Origin: Asterochloris sp. CNOR1
Lineage: Eukaryota; Chlorophyta; Trebouxiophyceae; Trebouxiales; Trebouxiaceae
Direction of reading: 5' to 3'
NCBI GenBank assembly: GCA_963969365.1
Contig: OZ017756.1
Span: 62,001 to 126,000, forward strand
Length of the DNA stretch: 64,000 nt
The notes under the pieces were generated by a model. That model did not search any database, was not told the DNA's origin, and saw only the letters and a program-made list of their open reading frames with translations. Below, in pieces: positions 1-64,000 of this stretch; positions within the stretch are counted from its first letter, which is position 1; every line of letters begins with the position of its first letter. A program made the translations under genes and the position numbers.

Positions 1-2330
1 GGGACAGGGCCCCTGGGTTGTGGGGTCGGGTCACTGACCGCTGCGAGACAGAATCACATCGCTGCTGTCACGTGCCACTGGGCACCTTTTCTGGGTTTGG
101 GGTCCAGGTCATGTGCAGGTGCACATGAGAAGGCTTAATGCAAGCAATATTGCCAAAGCACACTATGGTCAGACTGCATCAGAGAGACGAGGCCCTTTGG
201 CAGCTGTAGCCACAGCTAATAAGGTGCCCAGGCCTTTACAAGCAGCGATGTGACTCCTCTCATGCACCATGATCAGAGACTTGTACCCACAGCTCTGACT
301 GGTTTGTGGGGTCAGGTCCTCTGGTGATGACACATCGAGAAGTCACACAGCTACTGCTTCCACAGGCCGCTGGGCACAACCTTCCTGGGTTGCGGGTTTA
401 GGTCAACGTCCAGGTGCACATGAGCAGGCAGGCTGCCCACTGGTGACCCCAGGAGCTGCATATCAGACGGCGGGGTGCCCAGATGTGTTTGCCCAGCAAC
501 AAGCCACAGCTCACTGTCATCAGAGATGACTTGAACTCCCAGAGCCTGACTGACGGCAAAGCACCACTCGTGGCCAACCCAGCTGACTGCAACTCACAGA
601 GGACTTCATGACCCCACAACCCTCAGATCAGGATGGGGTCAGAGGCCCTTGGAGCTGCATATCAGGGGCGGTGTGCCCGGATGTATTTGCCCAGCAACAT
701 GCCACAGCTGAATGCCACCAGGGACCTGCGTCCCATAACAGCTGACTGATAGCACGCATCACGCTTGTCCACATGTGTGCACCACCTCCAGACAGACAGG
801 TTTTTCAGGACAATTTTACCGATTAAGTTGCTTTTCCTTTGTACATAGTTGCTTCTTGCTCTGGGTCACACCAGCAAAGGGCAACCCTGGACAGCAACCC
901 TGACCCCACAGCACTCAGATAGGGTTGTGGGGTCAGCGACCCCAGGAGTTGCCTATCACACGGCGGGGTGTTCAGATGTGCTTGCCCAGCAACAAGCCAC
1001 AGCTGTATGTTATCAGAGAGGACCTGCATCCTCATAGCTGACTGACAGCGAAGCATGACACTGGTCCAAATCAATTGTGTGCATGTACAGACAAGCTGCA
1101 CTCAGTTGATGTGGCCCATTGTGATGCTTTGCTGTCCAGAACAGCCTGCCCATTCTCTTGCTGGACACCCACAATTGCCGTCACCTGCGTCACTGCCTTG
1201 ATAGTGCATCCAATATGGCTCAACTCGCTGACCAGCAACTCCCTGACAAGCCACCTGCTGCATGCAAGCCCAGGGTCCCAGGAGATGTCAGCAGCACCCC
1301 ACCCTTTGCTGAGCCTCATTTGCCGGTACTGGAGCTGTCAAAAAGCACCACAGCTGTCGACGCAGTTGGCAGCTGTGTGAGATGCTACACAAGCATGATC
1401 CAGCATTGCCAAGCACATCTACAGTCACCCAGACAGCAAGCCTGAAGGCTGGAAGGCTCCAGCACAGGCGCAGCTTAGACCGCCACAAGGTCGCAGCAAC
1501 ATCCCATGCTTGCACTGGGTGGGACCAGCGTGTTGCTTGCCCCCATGCAGCCCTATCAGGAATTCATCTGGCTTGTGCCACTGATGGTGGAGGGCTGTCC
1601 GGACTGGATGGCTCCATGTTACTGAACGCAACCTGCCAGCCCGACTTCCAGCCCGGGATGACCTGGAAGTTTGGGTTGGCAGGTGGAGCTCAGAAACTTT
1701 GAGACGCATTACGCCAATTAGTCCAGAAAAGCCTGCACCCTCTACGGTAACATGTGGCAGGAGCCAGATGAATCCCTGATAGGGCCGCATGAGAAGGACC
1801 AATACTCTGCTCCTACTCAATGCCATCATCCATATGTGCAACTCTGATGAGTTGGGCAGATGATGATCGCACTGGGTGGAAGCAGCATTTGAATCCTGCC
1901 TGCAGACTCGTAACAGGCAGTGCAGCTCTGCCGGCTTGTGGTGCTGCCTCAGCTCTGCTGAAGCTGAGGAAAGAGGCCAGAGCTGGAGAGCAGAAACAGG
2001 TCACAACAGGCAGCAGAGTCGTGTGTAAGCAGCGCCTGTCTGCAAGTGCAATACGTGCAGAGCATGTACTGTTGCGGTGCAACTCTGCTGGAGCAGCATT
2101 GCAGCTCCAATGCACCCACAAGGACTGCATGGAGGCCAATGATTGGATAACAGCACAGTTCCCAATGATGAAAGGAACCCCAGTGCCTGCTCAAGTAGAG
2201 CGCAACGTCGCCCGTGTGGTTTGGCAAAGGCTGCAAGCTGCGCCCTGGGAGGCAGCTGCGGCTTCCTGCTGCAGCCCTGCTGGCTTGCAAGAGCTGGTGC
2301 TCGCTGATCAGTGGGCCGCAAGCGACGCCC
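1..2330. repeat. Unit 0: tail of a UTP20-like repeat block
   Basis: No gene seen. 1-420 holds ~300-bp repeats like 9690-10640. 380-1130 holds ~200-bp repeats like 10720-11250 and 43120-44150. 1140-1490 resembles the UTP20 intron at about 61190-61540. 1500-2330 resembles the repeat upstream of window exon 1 (62255-62870). The order is that of the live gene. Confidence 0.65.
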
Positions 2331-2356
2331 CATATGCCCCTGAGCAATGCCCATGA
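1820..2356 (+). repeat. Open copy of the ~850-bp dispersed repeat
   Basis: A 179-codon open frame across one copy of the repeat family also present at 19270-22250 and 62200-64000. Shared peptide-level pattern: GAASALLKLRKEARAGEQ, then NVARVVWQRL. Other copies keep parts of the same frame (LITGSAALLV, AQLKLN, VWQRLHPNG). Possibly a relic of a mobile element ORF, possibly chance. No known domain recognised. Confidence 0.35.
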
Positions 2357-3829
2357 TCATCGAATGCCACCAAGCAAGGCCACGGCACAGCCCTGCAGCA
2401 GCATAAGTTGGCCCAGCAGGGCCTGCTGCCGAGACTTGGTGTCGGCAGTGGCTGCTGTGGGTGCATTGTGCTGCCGCACAGCTCTTCTGGGTTCCAGGAT
2501 GAGCCATGAGATACGTTGCCAAACAGGAGCTGCTTGACATTCAAAGGTGGGTGCAAGCAATCATCAGGGAATGTTCAGAGGTAGCGAAAGACCACCCACT
2601 CCACAGGAGCAAGGGGCTACCCTTGTTCTGGTCAGCGGGGGGGCCCTGCTGTCTGTGAGCAGCCTCCCGACTGATGCTGGCAGCAGAATCCAGGCTTGAG
2701 ACACTGAGGTGGTGGAGGATGCTTGGGCAGATCCCAAAGCTTCTGCTGTGAGTGAGTCAGCCTGAGGCGCTGTCAGACTGCCTCATCACACTTGCAGGAA
2801 TGCATACTGTGTCGGATGGTATTGCATGGCAGACATGGACCCCGACGCACCAACACCTTGTGCTAGGTGCAGCATTTTGACCAGCATGTTTGTCAAGACA
2901 CTTGCCATCATCATCGGGAACAGCTCAGAGACAGCACTCAAGACCCACTCTCAACGACACCAAGGCCCCTCCTTGATGTGGTTGACAGGGCTCCCAGGCT
3001 GGCTCTGAGGGGTCCCGAATTCATGCTGGCAGCACCCCTGCTCCAGGATGGGAGCACCTCTGCTGTTGATGTCGCCGAGGATGTAGCACCCAAAGCGTCT
3101 GCCAGCGCAGAAGGTGAGCAGCCCTTGCCGACCAGCTGGCGGGCCAGCCGCACCTGCACATCTGGTCTGCTTGTTCGTGTGCAGCATCAGCTCTCTTCGC
3201 AAGGGTCCTGCGCATCGCTCCAGCGGCTGGTGGCAGCATGTAGAAGCCCAATCAGGCCTGCAGGCAGCAAAGCAGCATTGTCAGGTACTTGGTTGCGGCT
3301 TCCCACAGCCGCTGGCAAGGACGTGGCAGCACGTGGACCCCATACAGGCCTGCAGGCAGCAGAAAATGCAATTTTGAGCAAAACACGCTCAGCTGCCGCT
3401 CACGTGGTCAGGTGCATGGGCATGCAGCAAGCTCACCGCCAAGAGGACTGCTGACTCTGAATGCAGGACAAGAGCTCTCAGAAGCGCCATCCTGCTTGAG
3501 TGGTTAGGTGTGCCGCAATGTCGGCTGCAAGGGGACGAACCACTCATAAGCCGCGACAGAAAAGTTCTCAGGGGTGCAGGTTAACATGCAGGCCAGTAGT
3601 GACAGTCGTGCCCTGGCAGCAAGATTGCCTGTCTCCCTGCCTCACCTGCACGACTTTGTCTGAGGTGGGCAGCAGCACTCTGTAGGGGCAATGCGGCTCC
3701 CAGGGGTAGGATGGCCCCCATATTGATGCGCTGCAGGAGGACGTCCAGAACTGCATCCTGCAGGGGAGGCAGCAGCACAGTCAGTCCCAAGCAGCCCGGA
3801 TCATCCGAATGATTCCCTGGTCATCATGA

Positions 3830-4200
3830 GAGGAGGTGAGGGGAAGGCCAACACAGCAGCTTCAAGGACAGCCCAGGGGGTGAATGGGTGGCAGTAAGGC
3901 ATTCTCAACAAGGACTGTTGTACGCTGAACATGTACAAAAAGGTCAGCCCCGAGCAGCCCACATCAGCAGCAGTTTGGGGGACACCGACACAGCAGCTGC
4001 ATGGACAGCTCGAGGGGTGAAGTGATGCATGTAAGGCCTTGCACAAAAGGACTGCCTCGTGCTGAACAAGTGCCTAAATGTCAGCAGCAGCAGCTGCAGA
4101 GGAAGCCCAAGATGTGAGTCGGTGGCTGCGAGGCCACTTTCGTCGCGGAATTGCTGCACGCTGGATAAGTGCATTACAAGGCTGCCAAGATCATGAATGC
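3830..4200. repeat. ~90-140-bp tandem repeat, flank copy 1
   Basis: Three imperfect units, each containing CAGCAGCTGCA ... GGACTG(C/T)T ... GCTGAAC. The same array is at 14220-14590 and 27590-27950. Confidence 0.65.
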
Positions 4201-4359
4201 AGTAGCTTGAAATTGCAAAAGCCTGCCTTATTGTGCACCAGCAGCGGCAGGGTCTGCGCATGTGGGTGGATGGCGGAGGCTGCCGCCATGGAGTCTGCAG
4301 CTGTGTTGACGTCGCGCCAGCGCGCGGTCTCCTCCTGCATGCAGGGCCAGGGCTGTCAG

Positions 4360-4560
4360 CCTCCACCAAAGACCTGGGCCTACATGTTAGTCTCAGGAGC
4401 TCATGGGCTAGGGACAAAAGACAGGGCTGGTCCCTGTCGGCCTCCACTAAAAACCTGGGCCTGCATGTGGGTGTCAAAAGCTCATGGGCTAGGGACAACG
4501 GACAAGGCTGGTCCCTGTCAGCCTCCACCACAGACCTGGGCCTGCATGTGGGTCACATGT
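4360..4560. repeat. 81-bp tandem repeat, 2.5 copies
   Basis: Units start at 4360, 4441 and 4522 with an exact 81-bp period, a multiple of three, so both strands stay open across the array. Shorter versions are at 14748-14870 and 28108-28220. Confidence 0.85.
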
Positions 4561-5683
4561 GGGTCTTGTGAGCAAAGCAAGAGACGAGGTTGCAATTGTG
4601 GGGGTGTCATAATGTCTGCCTGACACTGTCTGCTTTGGTGCACCATCACTGAAGCATACACAAACAGTCCTTGCATACAAGGATCATGCTGTCGCCAGAT
4701 TTGGGGCCTGCAGGCCCAGCTCTGGATGGAAACACATGCTGGCAACTTACATGCTGCTTTCACAGCAACCACATTGCAGACAGGTGTCATAGACCGCCTT
4801 TCTGCAATTTGGGTTCAGGCAAAGCTGCATGTCAGTTGTGGGCATGAAGCCTGGTCTTCTGAATCCAACTTGGGGTGCAATCAGGTCTGATGCTCAAGTG
4901 CCTGGCTTTTGATCGGGCAGGGCCCACATCACAGACTGGGGAACCCATTGCAGAAGAGCGCCCAGCATGCTAAGGCATACAGCGACACAACCCAGATGAT
5001 GCGGCTGGGCCATCTGAGCACACAAGTGCAGGAGGCCTGCGCAGGCAGGAGCCCTGCAACACCCAGATCACGATGTGGGCTGGGCAGCCAAGCCCAGCAC
5101 ACATGAAAAGACATGCAATACCAATACAGAAGGCTGCCCCAACCCAGACGGCAATGTGGGTTGGTAAGACCAGCCTGCTGCCGGGCGCCCATGCAAACCC
5201 AGCAGAGGACGTTGCACAAAGCTCTGCACCAGGTGGGCTGCGCTGCAAATCGCCTGGAGGAAGCTGTGGTTCCCAGCAAGGGGGCCCTGCCCTGGTGGGT
5301 GCGAGCGTCCTGTGGATGTCGCCATCGACCTGCAGGCAAGAGTGAGCTTGAGGCCCTGCAGCAATCAAACTGGGCCGGTGCATGCCTCGCCTGAGAAGAA
5401 GCAGGCAGAGATCAGCTGGCAGAGCAGGTAGGGCTGACTGTCCTCTGCCCCCATGCATGAGGTGGGGATGTGTCAGGTACAAGCTGGACGATGCTTGGGC
5501 TCTGCTGTGCTTAAGGAGGGCTGCTGTACAGCGAACACGAGGCATTGGCAGCATCAGCAGAAGTCTATAAGAGCTGAAGGGGCGCAATGAAGATGTTAGT
5601 TGCAGGCAGCCGAGAATCACCTGTGAGTTTCCGGATGGCCGCACGCGGAATGTCCCGAGAAACTGCTTGCCCAGGCGGCAAAA

Positions 5684-6930
5684 TTGCAGGTGTCAGACAG
5701 GGTCCTATACTTATCTTCTTGCTGTTTCATCAGTATTTTGTGGGGCAGACAATGCCAAGCTTATGATCTTGAGCAATTGAAGCATGCTCAAGCTCACTGC
5801 CCCCCCCCCCCCCCCCCCCCCCCCAAAGGGTGCCACATCCCAGCTGAGATGCTCATGTCATGCATGGACCTTGCAGCAAAGCTGCCAATGCTGCACAGGC
5901 TCCACCTTGCAGCCACTTTAGGCAAGACCATGCCAAGACGAATGAGTAGCATTCAAGGCAAGGAGACCTGCCTGGTGCTGCACTACCATTGTTTGGGTTG
6001 ATTTTTTGCCAGAGCACAGCAGCACAACACTGCTTATGTTGCAGACAAAGAGGATGGCCCCAACATCAGCCGGCTGGCTCCACACCTGCAGCAGGAGTGG
6101 GACCATGCGGCCAACGCCCACCTGGGCAGGATCAATGTTGAGCCTGCCAGCAACAGGAAGGCCTGGTGGAGGAGCGGCACGTGCAAGACTGGGCAGCCGC
6201 ACAAGTGGGAAGCTTTGATCTTCAGCCGAACAAGGGGCGCCAGCTGCCCCTACAAGAATGGAAAAGCAGTGTGCCCCTGCAACGACCTGGCCCACATCCA
6301 CCCAAAGGTGGCAGCGGAGTGGGACCGGGAAGCCAATGGGGAACGGTCACCAGAGACTGTGACAGCAGCAGCGGTTTCAGGGCAGCCTGGAGGTGTGGCC
6401 CCTGTGGACACAGGTGGAGCGCCACTGTGTTGAACAGAACACAAGGAAATGGATGCCCCCGGTGTGGGCGCGAGGCCCGCCGCATCCGGTCACTCCAGCC
6501 AAGCATCAGCAGTGGCGCGCCACACCTGCTGGCTGAGTGGGATTGGCAAGCCAATGAGAGATGCGGCTGGCGCCCAGACCTGGTCACTCTCGGCTCGAGC
6601 AAGAAGGTGCACTGGGTCGTTCATGATGAGTGCAAGCTGGGGTTGGTGCACAGATGGCAGGCATCACCCAATAAACGCACATCACAGAGTGCTGGCTCCC
6701 CCTTCCCGTCTGGTATGGCTGTGTGTGCCTGCAACTCCCTGGCTGTGCAGTGCCCAAAGGCAGCCATGTTGTGGGACCATCAAGCAAACAAGGGCATGAC
6801 CCCTGACAGTATCACTGTGCAGTCTGCTCAAGTTGCATGCTGGAAAGTGCCAGACGGCAGGCAGTGGCAGCAGAAAGTTGACCGGTTTGTCAAGAATGTC
6901 AGAAGGCATGAAGCAACGATGAAGAGCTAG
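5684..6930 (+). pseudogene. Broken copy of the DUF4379-type zinc-ribbon gene
   Basis: About 90% similar by eye to 16070-17232. Two lesions break it. The first is a TGA at 5999-6001 where the intact copy has TGT. The second is loss of one G near 6369, inside the second zinc-ribbon unit. Downstream of the second lesion the frame is open again to the normal C-terminus (KNVRRHEATMKS at 6930), so decay looks recent. The proline codon run upstream is expanded by a 25-C tract (5800-5824), but in steps of three, so it keeps frame. A spliced product that avoids both lesions is not excluded. Confidence 0.75.
5800..5824. repeat. Poly-C tract, 25 nt
   Basis: In the broken zinc-ribbon gene. The equivalent site in the intact copy has nine C (16117-16125). 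Confidence 0.9.
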
Positions 6931-7080
6931 CTAGCTGTAGCTTCATTAGTGCACTTGCCAGCCTGGACTATTCAAGCAAGGTCACAGATGCTGTTCCTTA
7001 ATGTGATGCGTCCTTGTACAAGGATACGTTGTGAAGGCTGCAGACTCTGAATAGTTTTTGAATGATTTCTGATTACACAT

Positions 7081-7601
7081 CTAGACAGAGATCTTGAGGC
7101 TTGGCATGCCCTTGCTTTTTCTCAACAGGAACGCCAGCGCTGCACACCTGGTCAACTACGCCACATGGCAGAATGCACTTTGCGCTTCTTGGCTCGAGGC
7201 ACGCCTCTGCTGCGTGCGCATCTTGCTATGCGCCGCGGCCTCAGGTTCCACCAGGCCCTGCAAAAAATGCGCGAAGGTTTGAGCCAGCCCAGTCCCTGAA
7301 TGTCTGCTCTGCAAGGTGGGTCACACATCAGGTCTAACCAGGCTCAGATCTTTTCACTTACGGTGATGCAGATGTGCAGACGTTCTTGGCAGGGTTTTGT
7401 CCTCTAGTCTTAGTGCAGACCCCCCTACAACTTGCAGACACACACAGCCTGCCAGCAGAGTTGACTTTGCGCACCTTGACAGCCGTTTGGCGTCTGCGCC
7501 CGGCTTGCAGTTTGGTGATAGGTGCTGAAGGCTTCCAGAACAGAGATAGTCCCAACAGTCTCCCGCAGGCGGGCCACTACTTCTGCCGCCAGCCGCTTCA
7601 C
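7081..7601 (-). pseudogene. UTP20 3'-end relic, unit 1 (last two exons)
   Basis: It contains copies of the last two UTP20 exons in the same order and strand. The 7474-7601 part still reads VKRLAAEVVARLRETVG but has deletions before its end, and its donor changed to GTGCGC. The 7081-7256 part reads LVEPEAAAHSKMRTQQR, then an extra base and a further insertion destroy the lysine-rich tail. Confidence 0.85.
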
Positions 7602-9660: not shown

Positions 9661-9689
9661 TGGCGCCTTTGCAATCACCTCCATACACA

Positions 9690-53900: not shown

Positions 53901-56900
53901 TGAGGCAGCCTTGCCAAGCCCTTGATGCAGGGCCAGACATGCATGTCCAGCCTTGCGTCTTGTGCTGGGGCATCGCAGCTTCAGCCATTGGTTGATGTCA
54001 GGGTCTTTCAAACAATTTGGAGGTCCTGTTTCATGCTGGTAAATGCTGCACCCTGCCCTTCTTTCCCATCCACTTGGTTGAGAGCGACAACAACACCACA
54101 CAACTGCCACTGTCATTGCTGGATGGCAGAAGCGGCAACACCGCCAGACATGCAGACGCTTGTCTGGTGGCGCCGCTGCTGTTGCCATCAGCAATAATAG
54201 TGGCAGCAACTGCCTGGTGCCAAGCTGGTTGCCAAAGGGGCGACGCCTGGCAGCACGCTTGACACTGCTGTCTCCTAGTCTCTAGAACATGACCACAAAG
54301 ATGTAAAGCTTGGTGGTTGCTAGATGCTGCTGCTTGCTCAAGGTACACTGCTCTGACTAGCCTCTGCTCAGGAGGAATGCCCACTGTTAAGCAGTGCCAA
54401 CCAGCTGTAAATCTCCCAGATGTGTTGCATAGCTGCTTTGGACAGGCAGCATTGCTGACAAGCTGATGCCAACAGCAGCTTGGCAGCAGTACTGGCTTTT
54501 TTCCAAGCACTCAGCAACAACTAAGAGCAACAGTGACTGCATAATTACCAGAGCAGTAGCCAAATGTACTTGACAGATGGCTGTCTGCATTCAACTGGCC
54601 ACAGCAAGGCTGACAAACTACTGAGAAACTCAACTTTGTATCACTTTGCTTCCAAAACAAAGCAGCTGCTGTGTTCGAGAAAAATTGTGGTGCAGTAGTC
54701 TACATAGCTGATCAGCTTGAAGGCTGCGCGCAGTGCTCACTGCCTTGCAAACACCACGTGAGCATTGCACACACAACGAGCTGCTCAAGGCCGTTTCTGT
54801 GGATTGTTTCTGCCTGGAAGCAATCTACAAAAAGGACCCAGGAGAATCAGAATTGCGTCAAGGTGGGCTGCATTCAGTGCTGCGGGCCGCCTTGATGTTC
54901 TCACCGCAGCAGCAAGTTAAAAGAATGACGTAACAGAGTATGGATTGCTTTTCATGTGTACCTGTGTGCTTCCCAAGGGCTCTTGTGCAGCTAGCAACTT
55001 GCAGTAATGCCCCTGGGCAGGCTGCGAGGTAGAAGCCACGGCTGTGTAAGGGTGCATGCGCCCACCAAGCCCTACTATCACGTATCCACAATGCATTAAA
55101 TCATGCACACTGCATTTGTTCTCTCTAGATTGTCCAGGCAAGCTTTGTTACACATTTGAGCAGTCACACATGCAAGTCAGATGCCCTTTGGGCACCTTTG
55201 CAGGCGGACTGCATACATGCTGGCAGGAATGCGGGTAGTCACTGGCTTTCTCAGCTTCCCAGAGACAAAAAGGTTTCCGCCAGACTTCTGTCAGCAGCAA
55301 TTTTCAGGGTGATGCATGAAGGTTGGCCAGCTGTGGCGGAGGAACATGAAATGGCTTTGAGGTGTATCTCTTGACATGACGAACCCAGGCCATGGCAATG
55401 CACCCATGGGGTCTCAGCTGGGACTGGACAAGCCAGCACCTGATGTGCTGCTTTGATCAGACCCTGCTCAAGCCACAAGGCGGGCACCACCAGGACAGCT
55501 GCAAGGCTCATGCACCACTGCAACCCTACAAGGCTGTGACTTGTATTAGTCGTAAGAGCACCACCTGGCTAAGGAAATGCACCCATGGGGCCTCAGCTGG
55601 GACTGGACAAGCCAGCACCTGATGTGCTGCTTTGACCAGACCCTGCTCAAGCCACAAGGCGTGCACCACCAGGACAGCCTCAAGGCTCATGCACCATTGC
55701 AAATCTAAGAGGTTGTGACCTGAAATGCTGGTGCAAGCACTAGCAGGCCATGGCAATGCACCCATGGGGCCTCAGCTGAGACTGGACAAGCCAGCACCTG
55801 ATGTGCTGCTTTGACCAGACCCTGCTCAAGCCACAAGGCGTGCACCACCAGGACAGCCTCAAGGCTCATGCACCATTGCAAATCTAAGAGGTTGTGACCT
55901 GAAATGCTGGTGCAAGCACTAGCAGGCCATGGCAATGCACCCATGGGGCCTCAGCTGAGACTGGACAAGCCAGCACCTGATGTGCTGCTTTGACTGGACC
56001 CTGCTCAAGCCACAAGGCGTGCACCACCAGGACAGCCTCAAGGCTCATGCACCACTGCGACCCTGAGAGGCTGCCACAATTCAGACTGGCACCAGCACCA
56101 CCAGGCCACCAATGCAGCCATGGATTCTCATGATGGAGCTTGGCAAGCCAGCACCTGCTGGGCTGCTTTGACAAAAGTCAGCATGGAAAACAAAGGCGTG
56201 CACCACCAGGACAGCCTCAAGGCTGATGCACCAATGCGACCCTGAGAGGCTGCGACAAGTCACACTGGCACAAGCATCACCAAGCCATTGATGCACCCAT
56301 GGTATCACACATGAGACTTGTGTTCTCAGAGGTAATCAAAGCAGCGTGATCAAGGCCACACCCTGATCATGCTACTCTGACCATTTATGAGCACACAACG
56401 GGGTGCACCATCAGGACAACTTCAAGGCCTCAAGCACCAGTGCAACCCCGACAGGTCTTGAGCCGCATGCATGCTGCAGCAGCCCTCCAAGGCGCCGGGA
56501 GGTGTCTTGTGACTGATTTGCGGAGTGCCAGTCGGGGCATGTGGCAGGGGGATCATCCTGCCCAGCTGTGGCAAAGGGGGGCAGCTGAGCAGGATTCTGT
56601 CCTTGCATTTGCTGTGGCATCACTGAAGGCTGATCGGCTTGTGAAAGGCCGCTAGCTTGGATAGCAATGCCGTTAGTGGGAATAACACACACAACAGGCG
56701 CAAACACATGTTTGAGTGCCTGGCCTGAAGTGCCTGGCCAGTGGAACTTGACACCTGTGAGCAGAATGCTGACCCCATGGCCCTTGAGCGACAATGCAGT
56801 CAGCAGCTTGTGGAGTATCATATTGACAAGGAGGAGTGTGCAGCAGCTATATGGACCATTGGACTGAAGGCACATCATTCCTGAGCCCTGCAACGCTTCG

Positions 56901-59900
56901 CGGCCTAGTAAACAGGCGCACCCCTCCTGCAGGTGCCACCTGCCCGGCGTTACCTGGCTTGAATGTCCATGTGACGGGCTGCCTTTGCTTGGGACCTGGC
57001 TTGCCAGCAGGTCTCGAGCTAAAGCAGACTGCCACATAGCCTCAATGGACCCACAGCCTCAAGAGGCAGCAGCTGATATACTCAGGTTTAGGCGGGGGTG
57101 CCAGGAGTCGATCTGGCTTTTGGGTCCATGGTCAGGGCTAACAGAGGTCAAGCTGCCAGAGAAGGTCTGACTGCAGCAGGCAGTGTGACCTCTGGTACAC
57201 CAAATCGTGCCAGTGCATTCAGAGGTGGACTGGGCTCTGCATCACAGCTTGCAGGTTTCCCCGCCTGAAGGATTACTGGACTGGCCCACGTCCGCACCTC
57301 TTGCTGCTGAGCTGATGACACCATCTCCTTGTTTTCCCCTCCCCAGCTACTGTACATCTCAGCAGCTTCTGCAGCCCCTGCCAGGCAAAACAGCCCTATG
57401 TTGCCTGAGAAAACCTACAAAGACATCCCCTCACCTGAGGCAAATGCAGCGGCTGGCAGGCCCCCTGGAGCAGAAGGAGCACCACAGACACCAGCTCCGG
57501 CAGGAAGGGCACCAGCTTGTGGCCGAGGTGCTTCACGAGATCTGCCACGCTGTTCAGCAGCCCCACCCTCTGCCCCGCCGGCAGCTCCTGCAGGCGCTGA
57601 GTGTCGATGTGCTGCAGCCACCAGCTGCTTGGGCGGCGCCCCAGCTCAGCAGCCCACCAGGGCTCAGGAAACAGCCTGCAAGTACTGCAACAAGCTGTCA
57701 GTTGCCAGGATCAAGCCTGTCACCAGACCCAGTGTTCGCCTCCAGCTCTCAGCAACTCTCACCCCAACTACTGGATTGGCCTGACTTTGACTGCCAGCCC
57801 AGTACAAGGGAGGTGCCATGCTGAAGAGAGGTGCCAACTCTGCTGAATGCTTTGACTATCACTGCCAGCCCAGTGGGAAGGAGATGCTGCATTGTAGAGG
57901 GGGGCCGACTCCGTCACAGGCACAGCAGCAAGGCACTGGGTCAGTCTGGGTGTGTGACACTCTGCTGCCTGTGGGCTGTTGCCACAAACAGCACGCATGT
58001 AGGGGCTCTCAATAGCACCTGACCTGCTTTCATAGAAAGCACCAGCGGGAGGACAACCACAACGAACATTGAATGAGTACAGGAGGCTCACCCTGCAGCA
58101 GAATCACTCCTGCCAGCTTGGCTGGCAGTCCCATCTGACACCATGCAACCCCCTAGGGGCAGCAGGAACAGCTGCACCACGGGCGCCAGTTCGGCCGGCT
58201 CCAGCTGCGCAAAGTAGCTGAGCACGGCCGCCCGCGCTGAGCCCGGGGCCCCTTTGCCCCCCAGCCGCCCGCTGCGCTTCCGCATCTTGGGGAACAGCAG
58301 GCGCGCCAGCAATGCTACCAGGCCTGCAGACTATCAGAGAAAGGCTTTCAAACAGCCAGAATATGTTTTATTTACCCATGCTCAGCACCTTGGGGAGCAG
58401 CAGGCGGGCCAGCAGCGCGTCCAGGCCTGCAGTGTACAGGGCAACAGGCTGTGGCAGGGCACCGTTTGTGACGGTCACTGACGCACCTGCGCATCTGAGG
58501 ACACGCGAGGCAGGCCAGCAGTGCTACCAGGCTGCAGGAAATGCCAAGGTCAAGTTCTGGACAGCCTGAGCCTGAGATTATCAAAGAAGACTGATCTGTA
58601 GTTGTTATCTTTGTGGGCAAGTTGAGGGCAGACCCAAACTCCTGTGCCCACTCGCCCATTTTTGGTGGCAGGCAGGGCATAACGTCAGCTTGAGATTATG
58701 ATTGCAACTTTGCTGTGCTTCTGCATTATACATCATGTGGGCTGGCAGAGCATCTCCCAGTAGCCTGCGGTCTCTTGAAGAGGTGTATGGTGGTGCAGAC
58801 CCACAGACGGGTGACAGGGAAAGACACTAGTCGAGCGGCAGCATCAGCAAACATGCCCTCATGACTCAGCCAGATGCCCTGAAGCCACCCACCTCGTCGA
58901 TGCTCTGGCAGCATGCTGCCATCAGCGCCCAGGGCCAGGGGAAAGCCCACAATGCCCTCGCGCAGGGACTTATCGCTGGCCAGCTGCAGGCACTGCGTCA
59001 CGTAGGGCGACAGGAAGCCCAGCTTGAAGACCTGCAGGGGACACCTCAACAAGTGAGTCGCGGGCCAGCATAGCATCTGCTGCTCAGGACCAATGGGCAC
59101 CTGTTACAAGCACTGAGAGCGGTCTCGTCTGCGCAGCTACTGGACACTGACAACAGCATCAATGACGTCTGCCTGCAGGCTCACAGTCTGAGGGCATCCC
59201 TGTAGCTGTGGCCAGCTGTCAGATGCTGTATGATGTGCTTTATGCACTGATTGCAGTTTGCAATAATGCATGCAGGGACAATTACAGTAAATGGCCTGGA
59301 GTGATCAGTGTACGAATATCTTATCATGGCGTGCAAGCGCATGCCTCAACGTATATTTAGAACATCATGTCACCCAGGCTGGGTTGGACAGCTGCCACAA
59401 CTCAGGCTGTGTCAGGTGCTGTGCAGAGTCTCTGCAACCCACAGTGACCATGCAGGCAAGCTGCCAGCTTCAGGGTGCAAAAGCAGGCCACCAGGCATGA
59501 ACGCAAGATGCAGAGCATGTTTCTGTGCGATGAGCAGACATTGAGCCCAAAGACCTCCCATTGCGTGCAGTGATGTCAAGGCAATGGTTGATGTGACCTT
59601 GCGTGATTCAGTGTACGAGTTCTTATCATGGCATGCAAGCGCATGCCTCAATGTATATTTAGAACATCAGTTCACTCAGGTCTGAATTGCGGCGCAGCAT
59701 GGCATGCCAATCGACTGGGGGCTGCCTGCCTTTATGCAGGAACCACAAAAACAAGGAGGGGCCTTGCAATCAGCCCCTCCCTGTGCATGCTTATGATAGC
59801 AGTGATGGGTACTAGCAGCAATGATACACTGCCTTCAAGCACCACCAGACCCACACAGCACCCCCAGCACTCAAAGCTGACCTTGAGGCACCGCAGAGCG

Positions 59901-61818
59901 GCCTGCTGCACCTCGCTCTCTGTGTCCAGCAGTTGCGCAGCCACTGCCTGCTGCAGCTGTGGCGCCTGGGCCAGCCCCCGCACCCCCCGCACCCCAGCCA
60001 GCAGCGCCAGCCACTCCCGCAGCTGCGCCCGCCACAGATTGTTGCCCAGGCGGCCCCGCCGAGCCTGGTCGCCTGAGCCGACCTCAGCCACGGTGGCAGG
60101 CTGTGCAGCCAGGCTGCTGGCTGCGACAGCAGGCTCGCCGTTGACGTCAGCTTCCGTGCCGTTCCCATCAGCCTCCCCTTCACCTGCCTCCTCGACCGGC
60201 TCGTCTGCGGCTGCGCCTGTCTGGCGCCCACCTGGCTTGGCGGCCGCGTACTGGAGGAACAGGGGCAGCCAGTCCCAACTGTGGGGCTCCAGAACGCTGC
60301 TGGGGACCTTGGCCAGAGCCTGCAGAGGGGGCCATGGAACCCTTACTGCGCTGCCACCAATTGGGACAGCCCAGACAGAGCCTGCAGCTCTGGACTGCAG
60401 CCTGCCCGGTCAGCTTAAAGAAGTCCATTTCTTTGACAAGTGGCCAGCACCAAGTCTTGAAGCAGGTATGGTCACAAAGACTCTTGCATTGGTATTGCAC
60501 AACAGCATGGTCCCAGCACTTGGGGGCTCAATTTCAGCCTTTGATGGCTGGGTCTCAGCCAACGGTGCTGACAGAGCCACAGCATCATGGTGCTAAGTTC
60601 AGGCAGCCACTGCACAGGCTCCCACTTGCCCACATCTTGTGAGTACGTGATGTACACACCCCTCTTGTCTATGCCTACGCTGCCACCTGAAGGGGCCTCA
60701 GATGTAGCGGGGCTGCAGTGCCAGCTGGAGGTCACCACCCCTTCACACAGCAAATGTGTACAGGGCACTGTACAGCACTGCTCAAAGCAAAGAAGAGGGA
60801 CACAAGCTTGTCTTTGCATGCATACCACGCAGGAGAACATATCTCATTGGGGTTTGAAGCTGGGAAGGGTTTGGGCTCAGGCATCAAGGCTGCGCGGCTC
60901 TGCCTGGGGCTGCACCCTGAAGCAGTTGCTGTGTATCTTTGAATAAGCACCGCTTACCTTGAGCAGGTTGCCCAGGCGGATGCCGGCGTCAGTAAAGCCC
61001 CCGTTGAAGGCGGCCTCCCCTCTTGTCAGGGCATGCTGGAAGCGCTTGGGCAGGTTGGGCAACTGGGCCCCCTCCTGGGCCTGCAGCTCCTCCACATCCA
61101 CAGCCTCTGAGTAGATACTGCCTGCAGACAGCGTCAGGTTACTGCAGAAGAAGACTGCAGCTGTTGTGTGCTGCAGTGTTTGCCGCTGATAGCACTATCG
61201 GCTATCAGGAGTTGCCTGCAAGCACTGCCATTTAACAGCAGGCAACCATCCAGCTCACCCTGACGCAACTTGCTGCTCGGCCATTTGAAACCAGGCCACC
61301 TGCCGCATGCAAGCTCAGGGTCCCAGAAGATGTTAACAGTGACCGCACCCCATGGCTTAGTCTCAGCCACCAAACTGGATCTGGTGTAAAGCAGTGAAGC
61401 TGCCAGTGCAGATAGCAGCTACATGAGATGCTGAGCAAGCATGGTCCAGCATTGCTGTGTACATATACAGTCACCCAGACAGAAAGCCTGAAGACTGGAG
61501 GGGTTCAGCGCAGGCGCAGCTAAGACCTCCACAGGAACGCACCCCACACAGACACCTGCGAGCCTAAAGTTTCGGATGATGCTTCAGTAGCCTGCCAGCG
61601 TAGGTGCAGAGCACCCCTCTGCCCCTTCTGCATGTGACATGCATATGGGTACTGCTCTACTTAGGTGGGTAGCCAGTGGGCCCCAGTCTGGCTCACCCGC
61701 CAGCATGGCATCCTGGGTCTGCCGGAGGTGCTGTGCCACGCTGGGCCAGGCCTCTGCGGGGTGGTGCTCAACAGCAGCCGCCAATGCTCCAATCACAGAG
61801 GGCCACAGAAGTGAGTAC
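29746..61818 (-). CDS. UTP20: UTP20/DRIM, small-subunit processome HEAT scaffold (partial, 36 exons)
   Basis: UTP20 is a very large helical-repeat protein of the nucleolar U3/small-subunit processome, needed for 18S rRNA maturation. I joined 36 exons by hand. They sum to 6286 bases, one base completing a codon plus 2095 codons including the stop, and every junction is phase-consistent. Segments match UTP20 in order, for example LEPHSWDWLPLF, SLREGIVGFPLALGADG, EVDFFHNIAHLQLHRR, YTVHALLERL, AYDSYQLLARTVTF, LVVPEVYDVM, FLLDYPVGERRLQQHL and the basic tail VDPEAAAQSKMRKQQRR. Animal UTP20 is about 2,800 residues, so the N-terminal quarter is off the right edge or in unseen exons. Exons in transcript order run from 61818 to 29746 and are listed separately. 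Acceptors are almost all TGCAG. One intron uses a GC donor. No reading-frame break was found, so I regard this copy as live. Confidence 0.95.
30108..30245 (-). CDS. UTP20: UTP20 window exon 35
   Basis: 138 bp, phase 0; acceptor GTGCAG, donor GTGAGC. It reads VKQLAAEVVAHLRETVGADA then RAERRRQTAVK, matching UTP20 'LSQEIIELLKKLVG' and the start of the basic tail. Broken copies lie at 7474-7601 and 17800-17925. Confidence 0.95.
31000..31153 (-). CDS. UTP20: UTP20 window exon 34
   Basis: 154 bp; acceptor CTGCAG, donor GTGAGG. One base in, codon boundary out. It contains VFGLRFTAALASRLEPEGMK then PYLGPLMVPLYRITEG, matching UTP20 'IFKFLGAVAMDLG' and 'PYLPMIIAPLFREL'. Confidence 0.95.
31607..31922 (-). 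CDS. UTP20: UTP20 window exon 33
   Basis: 316 bp; acceptor GTGCAG, donor GTGAGG. Two bases in, two out. It contains LGQAVKCLVFLAHEMHTAAA, then a Gly/Asp/Glu-rich linker, then LAGLVRRMGKLGDD, matching UTP20 'VVKNLLFAAKVL' and 'LLWLIQKLSRIAK' on either side of an acidic linker. Confidence 0.94.
32169..32301 (-). CDS. UTP20: UTP20 window exon 32
   Basis: 133 bp; acceptor CTGCAG, donor GTGAGC. Phase 0 in, one base out. It contains LLLHPHAWVRMAAGRLLGLA, matching UTP20 '[21 protein letters not shown]'. An echo of its middle lies at 32098-32158. Confidence 0.96.
32749..32988 (-). CDS. UTP20: UTP20 window exon 31
   Basis: 240 bp, phase 0; acceptor GTGCAG, donor GTGGGT. It starts VLGIQLQVEQQRFSQRVPVL, has an Ala/Gly/Glu-rich linker, and ends GWQEAYYGLLLLEKALGP. 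An echo of its 5' end lies at 33108-33153. Confidence 0.92.
33788..33917 (-). CDS. UTP20: UTP20 window exon 30
   Basis: 130 bp; acceptor CTGCAG, donor GTGGGG. One base in, codon boundary out. It reads GRALASLLERATPERRDRLA then DARLRRAACQ. It corresponds to the UTP20 stretch with 'W---KK-LNRQLAA'. Confidence 0.92.
34343..34446 (-). CDS. UTP20: UTP20 window exon 29
   Basis: 104 bp; acceptor GTGCAG, donor GTGAGG. Phase 0 in, two bases out. It reads NIIVKFPDAVLDRWSEVFFL then PLVAHLTSDPSTKCR, matching UTP20 'FFIPLCLMTINDDSATCKKM'. An echo of its 3' end lies at 34252-34285. Confidence 0.95.
34773..34917 (-). CDS. UTP20: UTP20 window exon 28 (GC donor)
   Basis: 145 bp; acceptor CTGCAG. One base in, codon boundary out. 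It contains LLQFLLDYPVGERRLQQHLQ then NLGYEHEAGRASAIELLQ, strong UTP20 matches. The 5' splice site is CAG|GCAAGT on the minus strand, a GC-AG intron with otherwise ideal context. Confidence 0.95.
35097..35191 (-). CDS. UTP20: UTP20 window exon 27
   Basis: 95 bp; acceptor CTGCAG, donor GTCAGG. Phase 0 in, two bases out. It reads GVLGRKLVVPEVYDVMTCIQ, almost the UTP20 'AILSRKLLVPEIDEVM' block. A more upstream acceptor at 35268 was rejected because it breaks phase and conservation. Confidence 0.95.
35566..35709 (-). CDS. UTP20: UTP20 window exon 26
   Basis: 144 bp, phase 0; acceptor CTGCAG, donor GTGGGT. It contains DCLKLLAALLRQSEAYRPTT and LLGWVFGDMEEASASPTSFA, matching UTP20 'NCFKCVTILVKK---Y' and 'RQATAFGLLKAIL'. 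Confidence 0.95.
35710..39400. repeat. 3.7-kb UTP20 intron with tandem repeats
   Basis: 35980-37850 holds degenerate units with GACAAGCTC, TGATGCACAGGG and CAGCTGTGCACA words, the same family as 18080-19260. 38000-39400 holds nothing I recognise beyond short recurrent CAGCACAC and ACGCAGCAC words. Confidence 0.65.
39401..39486 (-). CDS. UTP20: UTP20 window exon 25
   Basis: 86 bp; acceptor CTGCAG, donor GTGGGC. Two bases in, codon boundary out. It reads LAESAPAAGRAVTGLLQQMP. The sequence is weakly conserved, but it fills the one gap between exons 24 and 26 in correct phase. Confidence 0.75.
40006..40245 (-). CDS. UTP20: UTP20 window exon 24
   Basis: 240 bp; acceptor CTGCAG, donor GTGAGG. Two bases in, one out. 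It contains LLVDFALGLLHTGLKRGGLA then LALLDPMLPLLVRALHSRQE, matching UTP20 'ESGLRLLHLSLK' and 'EMLDPFVSLLIDCL'. Confidence 0.95.
40346..40414 (-). CDS. UTP20: UTP20 window exon 23 (short basic linker)
   Basis: 69 bp; acceptor GTGCAG, donor GTAAGG. Two bases in, one out. It encodes a basic linker, GASKKAAKLHKQTQRSA. Because it is symmetric it could be skipped without frame loss. It is accepted because both splice sites are good and UTP20 has a basic linker here. Confidence 0.7.
40840..41150 (-). CDS. UTP20: UTP20 window exon 22
   Basis: 311 bp; acceptor CTGCAG, donor GTGAGC. One base in, one out. It contains AYDSYQLLARTVTFREQAGP then ALLHHAGRGFAANPSAGPQD, matching UTP20 'SYDSYEILGKFV' and the 'LRRI--GL--N' helix. 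A degenerate echo of its 3' end plus donor lies in the next intron at about 40697-40745. Confidence 0.95.
41409..41527 (-). CDS. UTP20: UTP20 window exon 21
   Basis: 119 bp; acceptor CTGCAG, donor GTGAGC. Phase 0 in, two bases out. It contains LERLLPIIEADLFSDLADAK, matching UTP20 'IMIEIFNHELFGAVAEEKE'. Confidence 0.94.
41528..44560. repeat. 3.0-kb UTP20 intron with two repeat families and a foldback
   Basis: 42000-42960 has the 200-330-bp family of 7780-9660. 43120-44150 has the ~200-bp family of 10720-11250, with block starts near 43207, 43412, 43681, 43877 and 44074. The 63-nt foldback lies inside the second family. Confidence 0.7.
43516..43652. repeat. Foldback, 63-nt arms with one mismatch
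   Basis: Arms 43516-43578 and 43590-43652 with an 11-nt loop, inside the intron between window exons 20 and 21. The single mismatch is T versus C in the GC(T/C)(T/C)AGCTG part. Confidence 0.92.
44561..44720 (-). CDS. UTP20: UTP20 window exon 20
   Basis: 160 bp; acceptor CTGCAG, donor GTGAGA. One base in, codon boundary out. It contains LGPDYLPFAVQVLESACPSK then GYTAHVLGYTVHALLERL, a strong match to UTP20 'RGYQVHVLTFTVHMLL'. Confidence 0.96.
45205..45229. repeat. Poly-C tract, 25 nt, in a UTP20 intron
   Basis: In the 44721-45333 intron. Same length as the tract at 5800. Confidence 0.9.
45334..45467 (-). CDS. UTP20: UTP20 window exon 19
   Basis: 134 bp; acceptor CTGCAG, donor GTACGC. Phase 0 in, two bases out. 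It contains VVRAPVALALVKLLRLMPPE and LPRVLQGVANLLRNR, near-identical in pattern to UTP20 'VVRVPLAFAMVKLMQSLP'. Confidence 0.96.
45893..45999 (-). CDS. UTP20: UTP20 window exon 18
   Basis: 107 bp; donor GTGAGG. Two TGCAG acceptors lie five bases apart, and only the one giving 45999 keeps the phase (two bases in). It contains DIQSALTRRVLPGLRSQLVK, matching UTP20 'IQGTITGDILPRLHKCL'. Confidence 0.9.
46440..46632 (-). CDS. UTP20: UTP20 window exon 17
   Basis: 193 bp; acceptor GTGCAG, donor GTAGTC. Phase 0 in, one base out. It starts GIIRAVCAIIDAFHFAIPAS, matching the UTP20 'VLEAFHFD' block. It then runs into an Ala/Pro-rich and acidic linker (DEEQDEG), as in animal UTP20. Confidence 0.93.
46890..47027 (-). 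CDS. UTP20: UTP20 window exon 16
   Basis: 138 bp, phase 0; acceptor CTGCAG, donor GTGGGG. It contains AAIGTLGAVAAGLPWAQYEQ and LLNQHLRSMKR, matching the UTP20 'AI-K-L-WS-Y--YLKHF' block. Confidence 0.94.
47397..47531 (-). CDS. UTP20: UTP20 window exon 15
   Basis: 135 bp, phase 0; acceptor CTGCAG, donor GTATGC. It contains LSVRVQMVVLVPLLQQFILE. It corresponds to the UTP20 stretch with a 'LQNYIMPY' helix. Confidence 0.86.
47727..47885 (-). CDS. UTP20: UTP20 window exon 14
   Basis: 159 bp, phase 0; acceptor TTGCAG, donor GTGGGC. It contains DSDPEVDFFHNIAHLQLHRR then TRALQRLAK. This is one of the best UTP20 signatures; the animal protein has the same 'E-DFF-N--H-Q-HRR-RAL--LAK' pattern. Confidence 0.96.
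48294..48422 (-). CDS. UTP20: UTP20 window exon 13
   Basis: 129 bp, phase 0 at both ends; acceptor GTGCAG, donor GTGTGC. It contains DLPELAQRLVMAQIQRALAA. The sequence is less conserved than its neighbours, but the frame and position are forced by exons 12 and 14. Confidence 0.83.
48779..48899 (-). CDS. UTP20: UTP20 window exon 12
   Basis: 121 bp; acceptor TTGCAG, donor GTGGGC. One base in, codon boundary out. It reads LDGPFWQACSSLQAAPLLLA then FQDLRNADDLAFRHASAQ, a HEAT pair. It lies just downstream, in transcript order, of the minisatellite intron. Confidence 0.87.
49180..50420. repeat. ~60-bp minisatellite in a UTP20 intron
   Basis: Degenerate units of 59-65 bp, with GCTCAGCTGTG(C/T)AGCTGCCAC cores near 49346, 49406, 49465, 49530, 49589, 49926 and 49986. 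It fills most of the 48900-51098 intron. Weaker units continue to about 51070. Confidence 0.8.
51099..51425 (-). CDS. UTP20: UTP20 window exon 11
   Basis: 327 bp; acceptor ACGCAG (the only acceptor not ending TGCAG), donor GTGGGG. One base in, two out. It contains LAVLAALWARLASENPPKSL and SATEIDQPDYDARLQAYR, the latter matching the UTP20 'DFDVRFETF' block. Confidence 0.92.
51650..51849 (-). CDS. UTP20: UTP20 window exon 10
   Basis: 200 bp; acceptor TTGCAG, donor GTGGGG. Phase 0 in, two bases out. A Gly/Gln/Ser-rich stretch is followed by ARCLAIMEQVAAAVQDAGMG and LADAMLPLLNQKGG, the helix pair that UTP20 carries before its next HEAT block. Confidence 0.88.
52193..52382 (-). CDS. UTP20: UTP20 window exon 9
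   Basis: 190 bp; acceptor CTGCAG, donor GTGCGT. One base in, codon boundary out. It contains RQAVLTLVESLLAAEGGLGE and ILAPHSGLLLEALRQF, fitting the UTP20 segment with an 'ILPHVPAIL'-type helix. Confidence 0.88.
52759..52901 (-). CDS. UTP20: UTP20 window exon 8
   Basis: 143 bp; acceptor ATGCAG, donor GTGAGG. Phase 0 in, two bases out. It reads ASASRSPALLDCAAALAADA. A closer AG at 52885 was rejected because only the 52901 start keeps phase with exon 7. Confidence 0.82.
53051..53281 (-). CDS. UTP20: UTP20 window exon 7
   Basis: 231 bp, phase 0 at both ends; acceptor CTGCAG, donor GTGGGC. It contains RLWAELLERFPEDLDFSSFW followed by DAWFCAVEPLM, a conserved UTP20 HEAT segment. A broken copy of this exon and about 1 kb of its upstream intron lies at 11323-12500. 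Confidence 0.92.
53282..57434. repeat. 4.2-kb UTP20 intron: source of the unit 1 relic plus satellite
   Basis: 53282-54520 is similar to 11558-12500. 54520-55370 holds nothing recognised. 55370-56460 is the ~179-bp satellite. 56460-57434 holds nothing recognised. Confidence 0.7.
55370..56460. repeat. ~179-bp satellite, six units
   Basis: Units start at 55396, 55575, 55754, 55933, 56110 and 56289, i.e. periods of 179, 179, 179, 177 and 179. Units two to four are nearly identical; the outer ones are diverged. Confidence 0.92.
57435..57675 (-). CDS. UTP20: UTP20 window exon 6
   Basis: 241 bp; acceptor TTGCAG, donor GTGAGG. One base in, codon boundary out. It contains EPWWAAELGRRPSSWWLQHI and HLGHKLVPFLPELVSVVLLL, matching the UTP20 block ending in a 'LLPFLPKLL'-type helix. 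Confidence 0.93.
58092..58323 (-). CDS. UTP20: UTP20 window exon 5
   Basis: 232 bp; acceptor CTGCAG, donor GTGAGC. Two bases in and two bases out. It contains LVALLARLLFPKMRKRSGRL and AAVLSYFAQLEPAELAPVV, matching the UTP20 block with a basic loop followed by a leucine-rich HEAT pair. An earlier donor near 58130 was rejected because it breaks the phase. Confidence 0.92.
58376..58426 (-). CDS. UTP20 candidate cassette mini-exon (duplicate of the start of exon 5)
   Basis: 51 bp bounded by CTGCAG and a GTAAAT donor. Phase is two bases in and one base out, so inclusion between exon 4 and exon 5 keeps the frame and adds 17 residues (LDALLARLLLPKVLSM plus a split Gly). The start of exon 5 reads LVALLARLLFPKM, so this is a duplicated exon 5' end. 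Whether it is ever spliced in cannot be told from sequence. It may be an inert relic. Confidence 0.4.
58893..59031 (-). CDS. UTP20: UTP20 window exon 4
   Basis: 139 bp; acceptor CTGCAG, donor GTGGGT. It starts in phase 0 and leaves one base. It reads through SPYVTQCLQLASDKSLREGI to SMLPEHRR, the conserved UTP20 block that precedes the RILYGRM-type helix. Confidence 0.93.
59290..59690. repeat. Direct repeat ~303 bp apart in a UTP20 intron
   Basis: An ~70-bp word containing TTATCATGGC and GCATGCCTCAA occurs at about 59310-59375 and 59612-59678, in the intron between window exons 3 and 4. Confidence 0.75.
59882..60319 (-). CDS. UTP20: UTP20 window exon 3 (largest; acidic linker)
   Basis: 438 bp, 146 codons in phase 0; acceptor CTGCAG, donor GTCAGC. 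It starts ALAKVPSSVLEPHSWDWLPL, a strong UTP20 match. It then carries an Ala/Glu/Gly-rich low-complexity linker of about 50 residues where animal UTP20 also has an acidic linker. It ends in a HEAT helix, AQLLDTESEVQQAALRCLK. Confidence 0.93.
60958..61121 (-). CDS. UTP20: UTP20 window exon 2
   Basis: 164 bp. The acceptor is CTGCAG and the donor GTAAGC. Phase in is two bases and it ends on a codon boundary. It contains LPNLPKRFQHALTRGEAAF and ends GIRLGNLLK, which leads directly into the ALAKVPSSVLEPHS motif of the next exon. Confidence 0.87.
61697..61818 (-). CDS. UTP20: UTP20 window exon 1
   Basis: 122 bp. The acceptor is CTGCAG and the donor GTGAGC. It starts with one base of a split codon and ends with one. 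It reads YSLLWPSVIGALAAAVEHH and matches the UTP20 stretch just before the conserved LEPHS region. This is the most upstream exon I can place in the window. Confidence 0.85.
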
Positions 61819-64000
61819 CTGCAGAGAAGAGGCAGCAAGGCTCAAGGCAAACAATTCTGGTGCATATTGCTGAGATAGGAGGCCACAACTGAACAGAGGA
61901 TTGTGCTGATGCTTCAGGCTTCCATTTGTTGCACTCTCAAGCAAAGTAACAAATGAAGTACAATCTTGTACACCAGTTTAACCCTTTGCCACAAATCACA
62001 AACGAGCAGAAGCAGCAAGACAAAATAATTCCGGACTCATCCTGCTGTGTCAGGAGGCCACAGATGGCAAACATAATTCTGCTTCCATTGCTTCAGGTCT
62101 GCATGTGTCACTCTCCAGGCTCGGGTCAGGATGAGGTGCGCAGGGTTACTCGTTGGAGCTGATGATGCCAACTCCCCTGTACTCTATGGCCATCTCTGTA
62201 CCGCTGTGAGGAAGCACCCTGCATGAGGGCCCAGAGCGCAACAAGCTGACCCTCCTGCATGCTTGCACTGGGAGGGACTAGCGTATTGTCACCCTCATGC
62301 GGCCCCATCAGTTACTGGAAGGGCCAAATGAAAAGGACAGCTACGCTGGACCCACTCAGTGCAAGCATGCACCCATCAAACTCAGAGGCTGCCTGCAGCC
62401 ACATGTCAGGCAGTGCAGCGCTGGTGGTCTGCGGTGCTGCCTCAGCTCTGCTGAAGCTGCAGGCAGAGGCCAGAGCTGGAGAGCGGAGACAGCTCACGAC
62501 AGGCAGCAAATGCAAGCTGCAGGCAGCGCCTGTATGCAAGTGCATTATCTGCAGAGCCCAGCATCTAGCGGGGCAACCCTGCTGCAGCAGCACTGTAGCT
62601 CCCATTCCCGCAAGCAATGCAGGGAGGCCTACATTTATAGCAGCATGCTTCCAGTCTATGGATGGAACCCCAACGCCCGCTCAGCTAAAGCTTAACCTTG
62701 CCAATGTGGCGTGGCAAAGGCTGCACCCCAATGGGCAGGGCAGCCACAGGAGCCAGCCCAGGATAAACTTGGCGGTTTGATATTACTCTGCCTGATGGCT
62801 GACCTCACAATGGGCCGTGATCTTCCAGCTACAGGAAGAAGATCTTCCTGCTACTAGAGAAGGCGAGTTCATTGTGAGCTCAGTCACCTCGCAGAGTCAC
62901 AGCACAACCAGGACCATCCCAGGCTGGAAGTTCGGGCTGGCAGGTGGAGCTCAGTGATTGAACACTGAGCAGGCCCAAGAGTCCAAAACCCTGCAACCTC
63001 TATGGATAGTTGTGACGGAAGCCAGAAGGTTCCCTGATTGGGGCGCATGAGGACGGATCTGCTGGCCCTACTCAATGCCCGCATGCATGAGCACAGCTCT
63101 GACGACTTGGAGAGATGCATCCTTGCACTGAGTGGGACCAGAGTAGTCCGTGCATGCAGACTCATCACAGGCAGTGCAGCGCTGCTGGTCTGGGGTGCTG
63201 CCTCAGCTCTGCTGAAGCTTCAGGTAGAGGCTAGAGCTGGAGAGCAGAGGCAAAGGCGACAGGCAGCAGATGCAACTGTGGGCAGCGCCTCTCAGCGTGT
63301 GCTTTCAATGCAGTGCCTGTGATGTAGCGGGGCAACTCTGCTGGAGCAGCAGCCCTGCCAGAGCAGCCTTGCAGCTCTGTTTTACCCGCAAGCAATGCAA
63401 GGAGGCCTATGACCAGACTTTGGCACACTTTCAGTCTATAAGTGAAACCCAACGCCCGCTCAGCTATGGCTCAACGTTGCCATTGTGGTGTGGCAGAAGG
63501 CTGCAACCAACAAGAAGGTGGCTACAGGATCCAGCCTGGGGCAACCTTGGCATTGAGGTAAGACTTGGGCTGCTGGCAGGTCTCAGAACAGGGCGCGGTC
63601 TTCCAGCTACAGGTAAAAGATCTTCCTGCTACAGGAAGTGGACAGCCCTTTGTGAGAGCTGCATCATCAGGCAGAGTGGTACCACAAGTCCACGATTTCC
63701 CTGAGCTGCAAGTCGAGCTGGAAGGCGGAGCTTAGCAACACAAAGACTGAGCAGGCCAACAATTCCAGACAAGCTTACACCCTCTGCGATAGAATGCGGC
63801 GGAAGCCAGATGAGTCCTGATTGGACCGAGTGAGAGGGACCAATACACGTAAGTCCCCACTTACTTCGAGCATGCATATGCCTAATTCTGAACTGGACAG
63901 ATCTACCACTGCATTGGACAGATGCATGCTTGCGATGAGCGGGACCAGTATATTGAATCCTGCCTGCAAACTCATCACAGGCAGTGCCGCGCTGCTGGTC
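61819..64000. repeat. Upstream intron or 5' region with ~850-bp dispersed repeats
   Basis: At least two and a half copies of the repeat family of 1500-2330 and 19270-22250, near 62255, 63050 and 63880. No UTP20 exon recognised here, so the N-terminal exons should be to the right of 64000. Confidence 0.65.

Follow-up and report, generated by a model that had tools for sequence, protein, structure and literature searches.

A subtelomeric tandem array of decayed UTP20 copies beside one live gene in Asterochloris sp. CNOR1

Near one chromosome end of Asterochloris sp. CNOR1, tandem, same-strand, collinear and decayed copies of UTP20 lie beside one live gene. The array probably arose (we put this at roughly 0.85) from one founding partial duplication of about 51 kb, without exon 1 and the promoter side, which multiplied and then decayed beside its live parent. 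It is a set of well-preserved tandem unprocessed pseudogenes, ordinary in kind and unusual in clarity and size.

The window, meaning the whole stretch of DNA analysed, is 64,000 nucleotides long and corresponds to C11:62,001-126,000 in a genome of 56.4 Mb and 21 contigs. Positions marked c11 are those of the contig, and subtracting 62,000 gives the window position. Because C11 begins with CCCTAAA telomere repeats, the array is subtelomeric. The relic units are named R1 to R4 in this analysis, counted from the telomere. A second tandem-repeat set is found at the same chromosome end (C11:169,600-183,000), whose matching segments measure about 0.4-2.6 kb and are 67-78% identical. Elsewhere in the assembly, cox1 lies on contig C20 (110,056 bp), which is taken from this to be the mitochondrion, and rbcL lies on C21. 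The chlorophyll a/b-binding family gives 31 matched stretches in the genome, some of which probably belong to a single gene. Together these observations point to a photosynthetic eukaryote, in keeping with a green alga.

The live gene and its relics

By protein similarity along its length, the live copy is identified as UTP20, and it is apparently a very large, working gene as far as prediction goes. It is read from the minus strand, with its stop codon at window position 29,746 and its ATG beyond the window end, at the equivalent of 80,423 (c11 142,423). About 49 exons are predicted over a span of about 50.7 kb, and roughly the 3' two thirds of the gene lie inside the window. Exon 1 is at c11 142,307-142,423; the last exon, ending in the stop codon, is at c11 91,746-91,904.

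29,318-64,000 (c11 91,318-142,423, past the window end), minus strand: live UTP20 unit, from Pfam PF07539 and PF20416 and human UTP20 matches
29,318-29,745, minus strand: 3' flank of the live gene as far as the R4 joint, from sequence comparison

Profile searches place PF07539 and PF20416 on the minus strand in order. Joined N-terminal exon predictions match human UTP20 residues 50-253 and 625-1061 in order (whole-sequence E 9.8e-22), and joined C-terminal predictions match residues 1955-2494 and 2600-2763 in order (E 6e-62). This human comparison covered the N- and C-terminal exons; among the middle exons are those with the PF07539 and PF20416 matches. The N-terminal query contained one doubtful predicted exon (138,217), and a few exon ends were trimmed in both queries. 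An exon-by-exon search with PF23099 (UTP20_C) gave no match, and none in the controls either, so it is uninformative. The gene model itself comes from a home-made exon finder; it is rough, a prediction from sequence alone with several phase mismatches. Its exon count was reached from 50 predicted exons by removing three doubtful ones, adding the last exon and locating exon 2 separately. An earlier assignment, with live-gene flank at 87.5-91.5 kb and one more copy at 130-142 kb, was rejected, since N-terminal UTP20 exons lie at 132-142 kb.

Head-to-tail, same-strand copies of the gene make up the greater part of the window's first 29.3 kb and of about 11 kb beyond its left edge. Exons are numbered as in the live gene (e02 for exon 2, and so on).

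c11 50,902-61,067, left of the window, minus strand: R1, from directed comparison with the live unit
1-5,547 (c11 61,128-67,547, starting 873 bp left of the window), minus strand: R2, with intron repeats, fused e10/e04, e03 and e02
3,646-3,757, minus strand: R2 exon 4/exon 10 fusion, from exon comparison
4,223-4,334, minus strand: R2 e03 relic, open, donor GT changed to GC
5,548-15,849 (c11 67,548-77,849), minus strand: R3, with 3' flank carrying a DUF4379 insert, e49, e48, the 42-44 kb intron repeats, e21, satellite, fused e10/e04, e03 and e02
7,087-7,255, minus strand: R3 e49 relic, frameshifting indels
7,475-7,601, minus strand: R3 e48 relic, frameshifting indel
11,323-11,557, minus strand: R3 e21 relic, frameshifting indels, acceptor AG changed to GA
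14,036-14,141, minus strand: R3 exon 4/exon 10 fusion, from exon comparison
14,612-14,723, minus strand: R3 e03 relic, open
15,851-29,317 (c11 77,851-91,317), minus strand: R4, with 3' flank carrying a DUF4379 insert, e49, e48, intron repeats, e13 to e11, e10/e04 fusion, e03 and e02
17,413-17,580, minus strand: R4 e49 relic, frameshifting indels
17,800-17,925, minus strand: R4 e48 relic, frameshifting indels
22,247-22,352, minus strand: R4 e13 relic, no frameshift
22,699-22,884, minus strand: R4 e12 relic, two 1-bp indels
23,139-23,347, minus strand: R4 e11 relic, frameshift, donor GT changed to GG
27,389-27,498, minus strand: R4 exon 4/exon 10 fusion, at the 8.4-kb deletion
27,972-28,083, minus strand: R4 e03 relic, open, 84.8% identity to the live exon
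29,060-29,101, minus strand: R4 e02 relic, from the exon 2 search

Recognisable relics exist for 11 of the roughly 49 exons (e02, e03, the fused e04 and e10, e08, e11, e12, e13, e21, e48 and e49); a weak e09 match in R1 overlaps the e08 match and is excluded from this count. About 5.8 kb within R1 (c11 51,460-57,240) has no live-gene match at E 1e-3, and its longest stop-free frame is 178 aa. A supposed further remnant left of R1 was dismissed, the matching DNA being R1's own 3' flank.

The order of the relics follows that of the live gene. In a self-BLAST of the first 200 kb of C11, 304 matches fall within c11 50-145 kb, 270 of them on the plus and 34 on the minus strand, and the array has six matches to sequence outside it, all to one repeat of about 150 bp at 156.6 kb. 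The relic side (c11 50,001-91,317) gives 168 matches to the live unit (c11 91,318-142,500), 144 plus and 24 minus; control stretches of 50 kb on either side give two each. Chaining was applied to the plus-strand segments with at most 30% overlap (n = 63, the 24 minus matches having been excluded beforehand), which account for 25,634 of 41,317 compared bases. The longest collinear run takes up 9 of 9 segments in R1, 13 of 14 in R2 and 15 of 20 in each of R3 and R4, leaving 5 of 20 off the run in R3 and 5 of 20 in R4. When segment order was permuted, 0 of 2,000 permutations per unit equalled the observed run.

A genome-wide DNA search used window positions 25,500-64,000 and also 60,000-61,000 as queries, so that the live gene was covered as far as the window end. 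Matches lie mainly in the array (C11 50.9-142.3 kb); the exceptions are short matches on C1, C2, C3, C9, C12, C13, C16, C17 and C21 and a mitochondrial repeat on C20. All such counts are minimum figures, as only the best candidates were scored and very common words were skipped. One fragment on another chromosome (C17:1,354,419-1,354,822) runs across a UTP20 unit joint, with 3' flank and intron 1, and C13:2,120,149-2,120,820, also on another chromosome, is a short copy of intron sequence from c11 130.4-131.0 kb.

Shared intron repeats and satellites could by themselves mimic a gene array, since the introns do hold local repeat families with short copies on several other contigs. The exon relics are ordered, however, their matches are mainly local, and the sparse controls and the permutations agree; collinearity and locality refute this account, whose probability is close to nil. 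The relics contain intron sequence collinear with the parent, as unprocessed pseudogenes do, so a processed (retro) origin is ruled out. They are also adjacent to the parent, on the same strand and head to tail, as is characteristic of tandem pseudogenes.

A first-pass annotation had already described, next to one survivor, UTP20 relics that are tandem, same-strand and collinear and have lost internal parts, and self-BLAST and directed comparison confirm it. The recurring pieces that it listed are present in the self-BLAST, mostly on the same strand, and the further units that it suggested looking for to the left exist, in R1 and the outer part of R2. Scattered repeat families with non-collinear relics, which it had named as the outcome that would speak against it, were looked for and did not appear. 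Other details had to be revised. Units do not meet at 2,340, 13,570 and 26,030, as had been proposed, but at joints near 5,547, 15,850 and 29,317. The supposed downstream flank at about 26.0-29.3 kb is the neighbouring relic's 5' part, made up of intron, exon 4/exon 10 fusion, e03 and e02, joined by a shared 8.4-kb deletion. The live gene is larger than was thought, extending past the window. The relic exon called exon 7 in what was then unit 1 is probably e21 of R3.

Joints and origin of the array

The joints between units show where the copied segment began and ended. Three are visible.

5,547-5,548, no strand: joint R2/R3, same breakpoint as the other joints
15,849-15,851, no strand: joint R3/R4, same breakpoint as the other joints
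29,317-29,318, no strand: joint R4/live, where intron-1 sequence (live equivalent about 142,272) abuts 3' flank (91,318)

In live coordinates, R1 starts at 91,323 and R3 and R4 both at 91,318, whereas R2, R3 and R4 end at 142,278, 142,271 and 142,272, all inside intron 1. The copied stretch thus starts about 430 bp downstream of the stop codon and extends as far as intron 1, and the breakpoint is the same, within about 7 bp, at 3 of 3 visible joints. The R1/R2 joint has been lost, because the 5' end of R1 and the 3' end of R2 are deleted; the left edge of R1 aligns with the 3'-flank half of the R4/live joint. Since R2 to R4 share the intron-1 breakpoint, one headless duplication (one without exon 1 and the promoter side) would have been multiplied, and three joints together with the edge of R1 show the single breakpoint expected of such a founding event.

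The exon-1 region, compared with c11 1-200 kb, finds itself only, other matches having E >= 0.19. For the 7.7 kb of DNA upstream of exon 1, no match in the relics has an E below 0.003, the value reached over 42 bp. From the absence of this upstream DNA we infer that the relics lack a promoter. They were probably never capable of working alone, because the first exon and promoter side are missing.

The first-pass annotation had favoured repeated duplication of whole UTP20 genes with their promoters, all but one of which collapsed, with exon 1 lost separately or through gene conversion. The decayed relics do jointly hold pieces of both gene ends and the middle, and the likely gene conversion among them could spread one 5' deletion. 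R2, R3 and R4 nevertheless end at the same point in intron 1 (R1, its 5' end deleted, is uninformative here), R1 starts where the other units do, and neither exon 1 nor its upstream DNA is found in the array. Whole-gene duplication is therefore unlikely. In another route, the 51-kb segment would have formed an extrachromosomal circle that went back into the chromosome as multimers next to the gene; a circle junction would likewise yield identical joints. Nothing specific speaks against a circle, but tandem duplication with unequal exchange is a simpler source of same-orientation adjacency with an intact gene at one end; we regard the circle as improbable.

Under the founding partial duplication, a DNA-level tandem event would have copied about 51 kb of UTP20, with one end some 430 bp beyond the stop codon and the other inside intron 1, and placed the headless copy next to the 3' end of the intact gene, towards the telomere. 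Unequal exchange between units may then have raised the headless copies to at least four. Being promoterless, the relic units would be neutral; they may have shrunk via short-repeat deletions and been patched by gene conversion. Their decay took the form of deletions, frameshifts and, in places, altered splice sites. Only the end unit, with exon 1 and the promoter side, could have stayed a working gene. That the end unit alone has exon 1 suggests why this copy is the survivor.

Decay and order of events

Thirteen relic exon copies were tested against the live exons. In nine of them there are indels whose length is not divisible by three, and three have a changed splice site (e03 of R2, e11 of R4 and e21 of R3), so the relics bear the disabling lesions of unprocessed pseudogenes. 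Gap-free codons of the 13 copies contain no in-frame stop; e48 of R4 has one stop in its tblastn alignment. The two indels in e12 of R4 may cancel. A suspected donor loss in the e13 relic of R4 was withdrawn, as the aligned stretch ends two bases before the exon end and GT follows.

Divergence, which the first-pass annotation had proposed to estimate from such alignments, amounts over the 13 copies to a pooled live-relic Ks of 0.297 and Ka of 0.131, with Ka/Ks 0.44 (bootstrap 0.34-0.57; 639 codons). This value fits one constrained branch and one free. For e03, open in all three relics that have it listed above, live-relic Ka/Ks is 0.25-0.38, and for e49 of R1 it is 0.15; the open e03 and the low e49 ratio could hint at a constrained phase. 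Between relics, e03 gives Ka/Ks 1.64, on just 25 non-independent changes (about 4 synonymous and 21 nonsynonymous). Taken together, lesions and Ka/Ks fit free decay on the relic side, short of proof. The open e03 might also be read as a sign of some present-day function of the relics or of RNA transcribed from them, whether as a truncated protein or as antisense or small RNA acting on UTP20. Given the frameshifts in most exon copies and the absence of upstream DNA from the array, this is very unlikely.

Some events are shared between units and can be placed in partial order. R2, R3 and R4 share the e04/e10 fusion made by the 8.4-kb deletion, and CTGCTGCC is present in both live exon 4 and live exon 10, at the fusion breakpoint. 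R1 retains part of the DNA lost in this deletion, so R2 to R4 would derive from one already damaged copy or have exchanged it by conversion. R3 and R4 have in common a DUF4379 insert in their 3' flank, and the live gene contains a mitochondrial repeat.

16,069-17,320, plus strand: DUF4379 ORF insert in the R4 3' flank, stop-to-stop 443 aa from 15,901, PF14311 E 8.8e-43
5,752-7,080, plus strand: DUF4379-type insert in R3, longest frame scanned 262 aa, PF14311 E 1.2e-22
53,581-53,672 (c11 115,581-115,672), no strand: copy of a mitochondrial dispersed repeat, 92 bp, about 98% identity, inside the live gene

The DUF4379 (treble-clef zinc finger) insert family has at least 52 DNA matches in the genome. 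Many of them lie on C12, C1 and C17, no more than about 0.5 Mb from the start of the contig. The mitochondrial contig C20 matches the 92-bp repeat, fully or in part, at dozens of places; R3 has the corresponding site (near 11,841-11,857) without it. Over some 4.4 kb, R3 and R4 differ in patches, with identities of about 80-100% from one 75-column step to another, and gene conversion between the two is likely on this pattern.

The array can thus be read as a fossil series, in which the single breakpoint, the R2-R4 deletion, the R3/R4 insertion and the mitochondrial insert present in the live gene and missing from R3 give a partial order. It also has a practical side: gene callers could count the relics as additional UTP20 genes, and only about 430 bp separate the stop codon of the live gene from a relic.

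Comparison with known systems

UTP20 is an essential ribosome-biogenesis gene, and its product is the SSU processome component seen in structures PDB 7mq8, 6ke6 and 6rxu. The live gene resembles this UTP20 in its N-terminal, middle (Pfam) and C-terminal regions; it differs in the great span and exon number predicted here.

Partial tandem gene duplications can multiply by unequal crossing over. The array shares with them head-to-tail copies and one repeated junction, but its unit is very large (about 51 kb), strongly decayed and set in a compact 56-Mb genome. A literature search for UTP20 tandem duplication and pseudogenes, or for DUF4379 in algae, found no paper, and titles and opening lines of abstracts in related literature describe no comparable array. 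In this lineage, headless tandem duplication might befall very long essential genes near chromosome ends quite generally, a doubtful generalisation at present. Born-dead copies without dosage cost would then expand and shrink freely, keep a fossil record of deletions, inserts and conversion tracts next to the gene, and perhaps act as conversion templates that repair or harm the live copy.

Long genes tend to yield unprocessed (duplicated) pseudogenes, according to Khachane and Harrison (2009, PMC2768697). The relics are like such pseudogenes in their retained introns, DNA-level copying, disabling lesions and long parent gene. They differ from them in forming at least four tandem copies with one common headless joint and the parent at one end.
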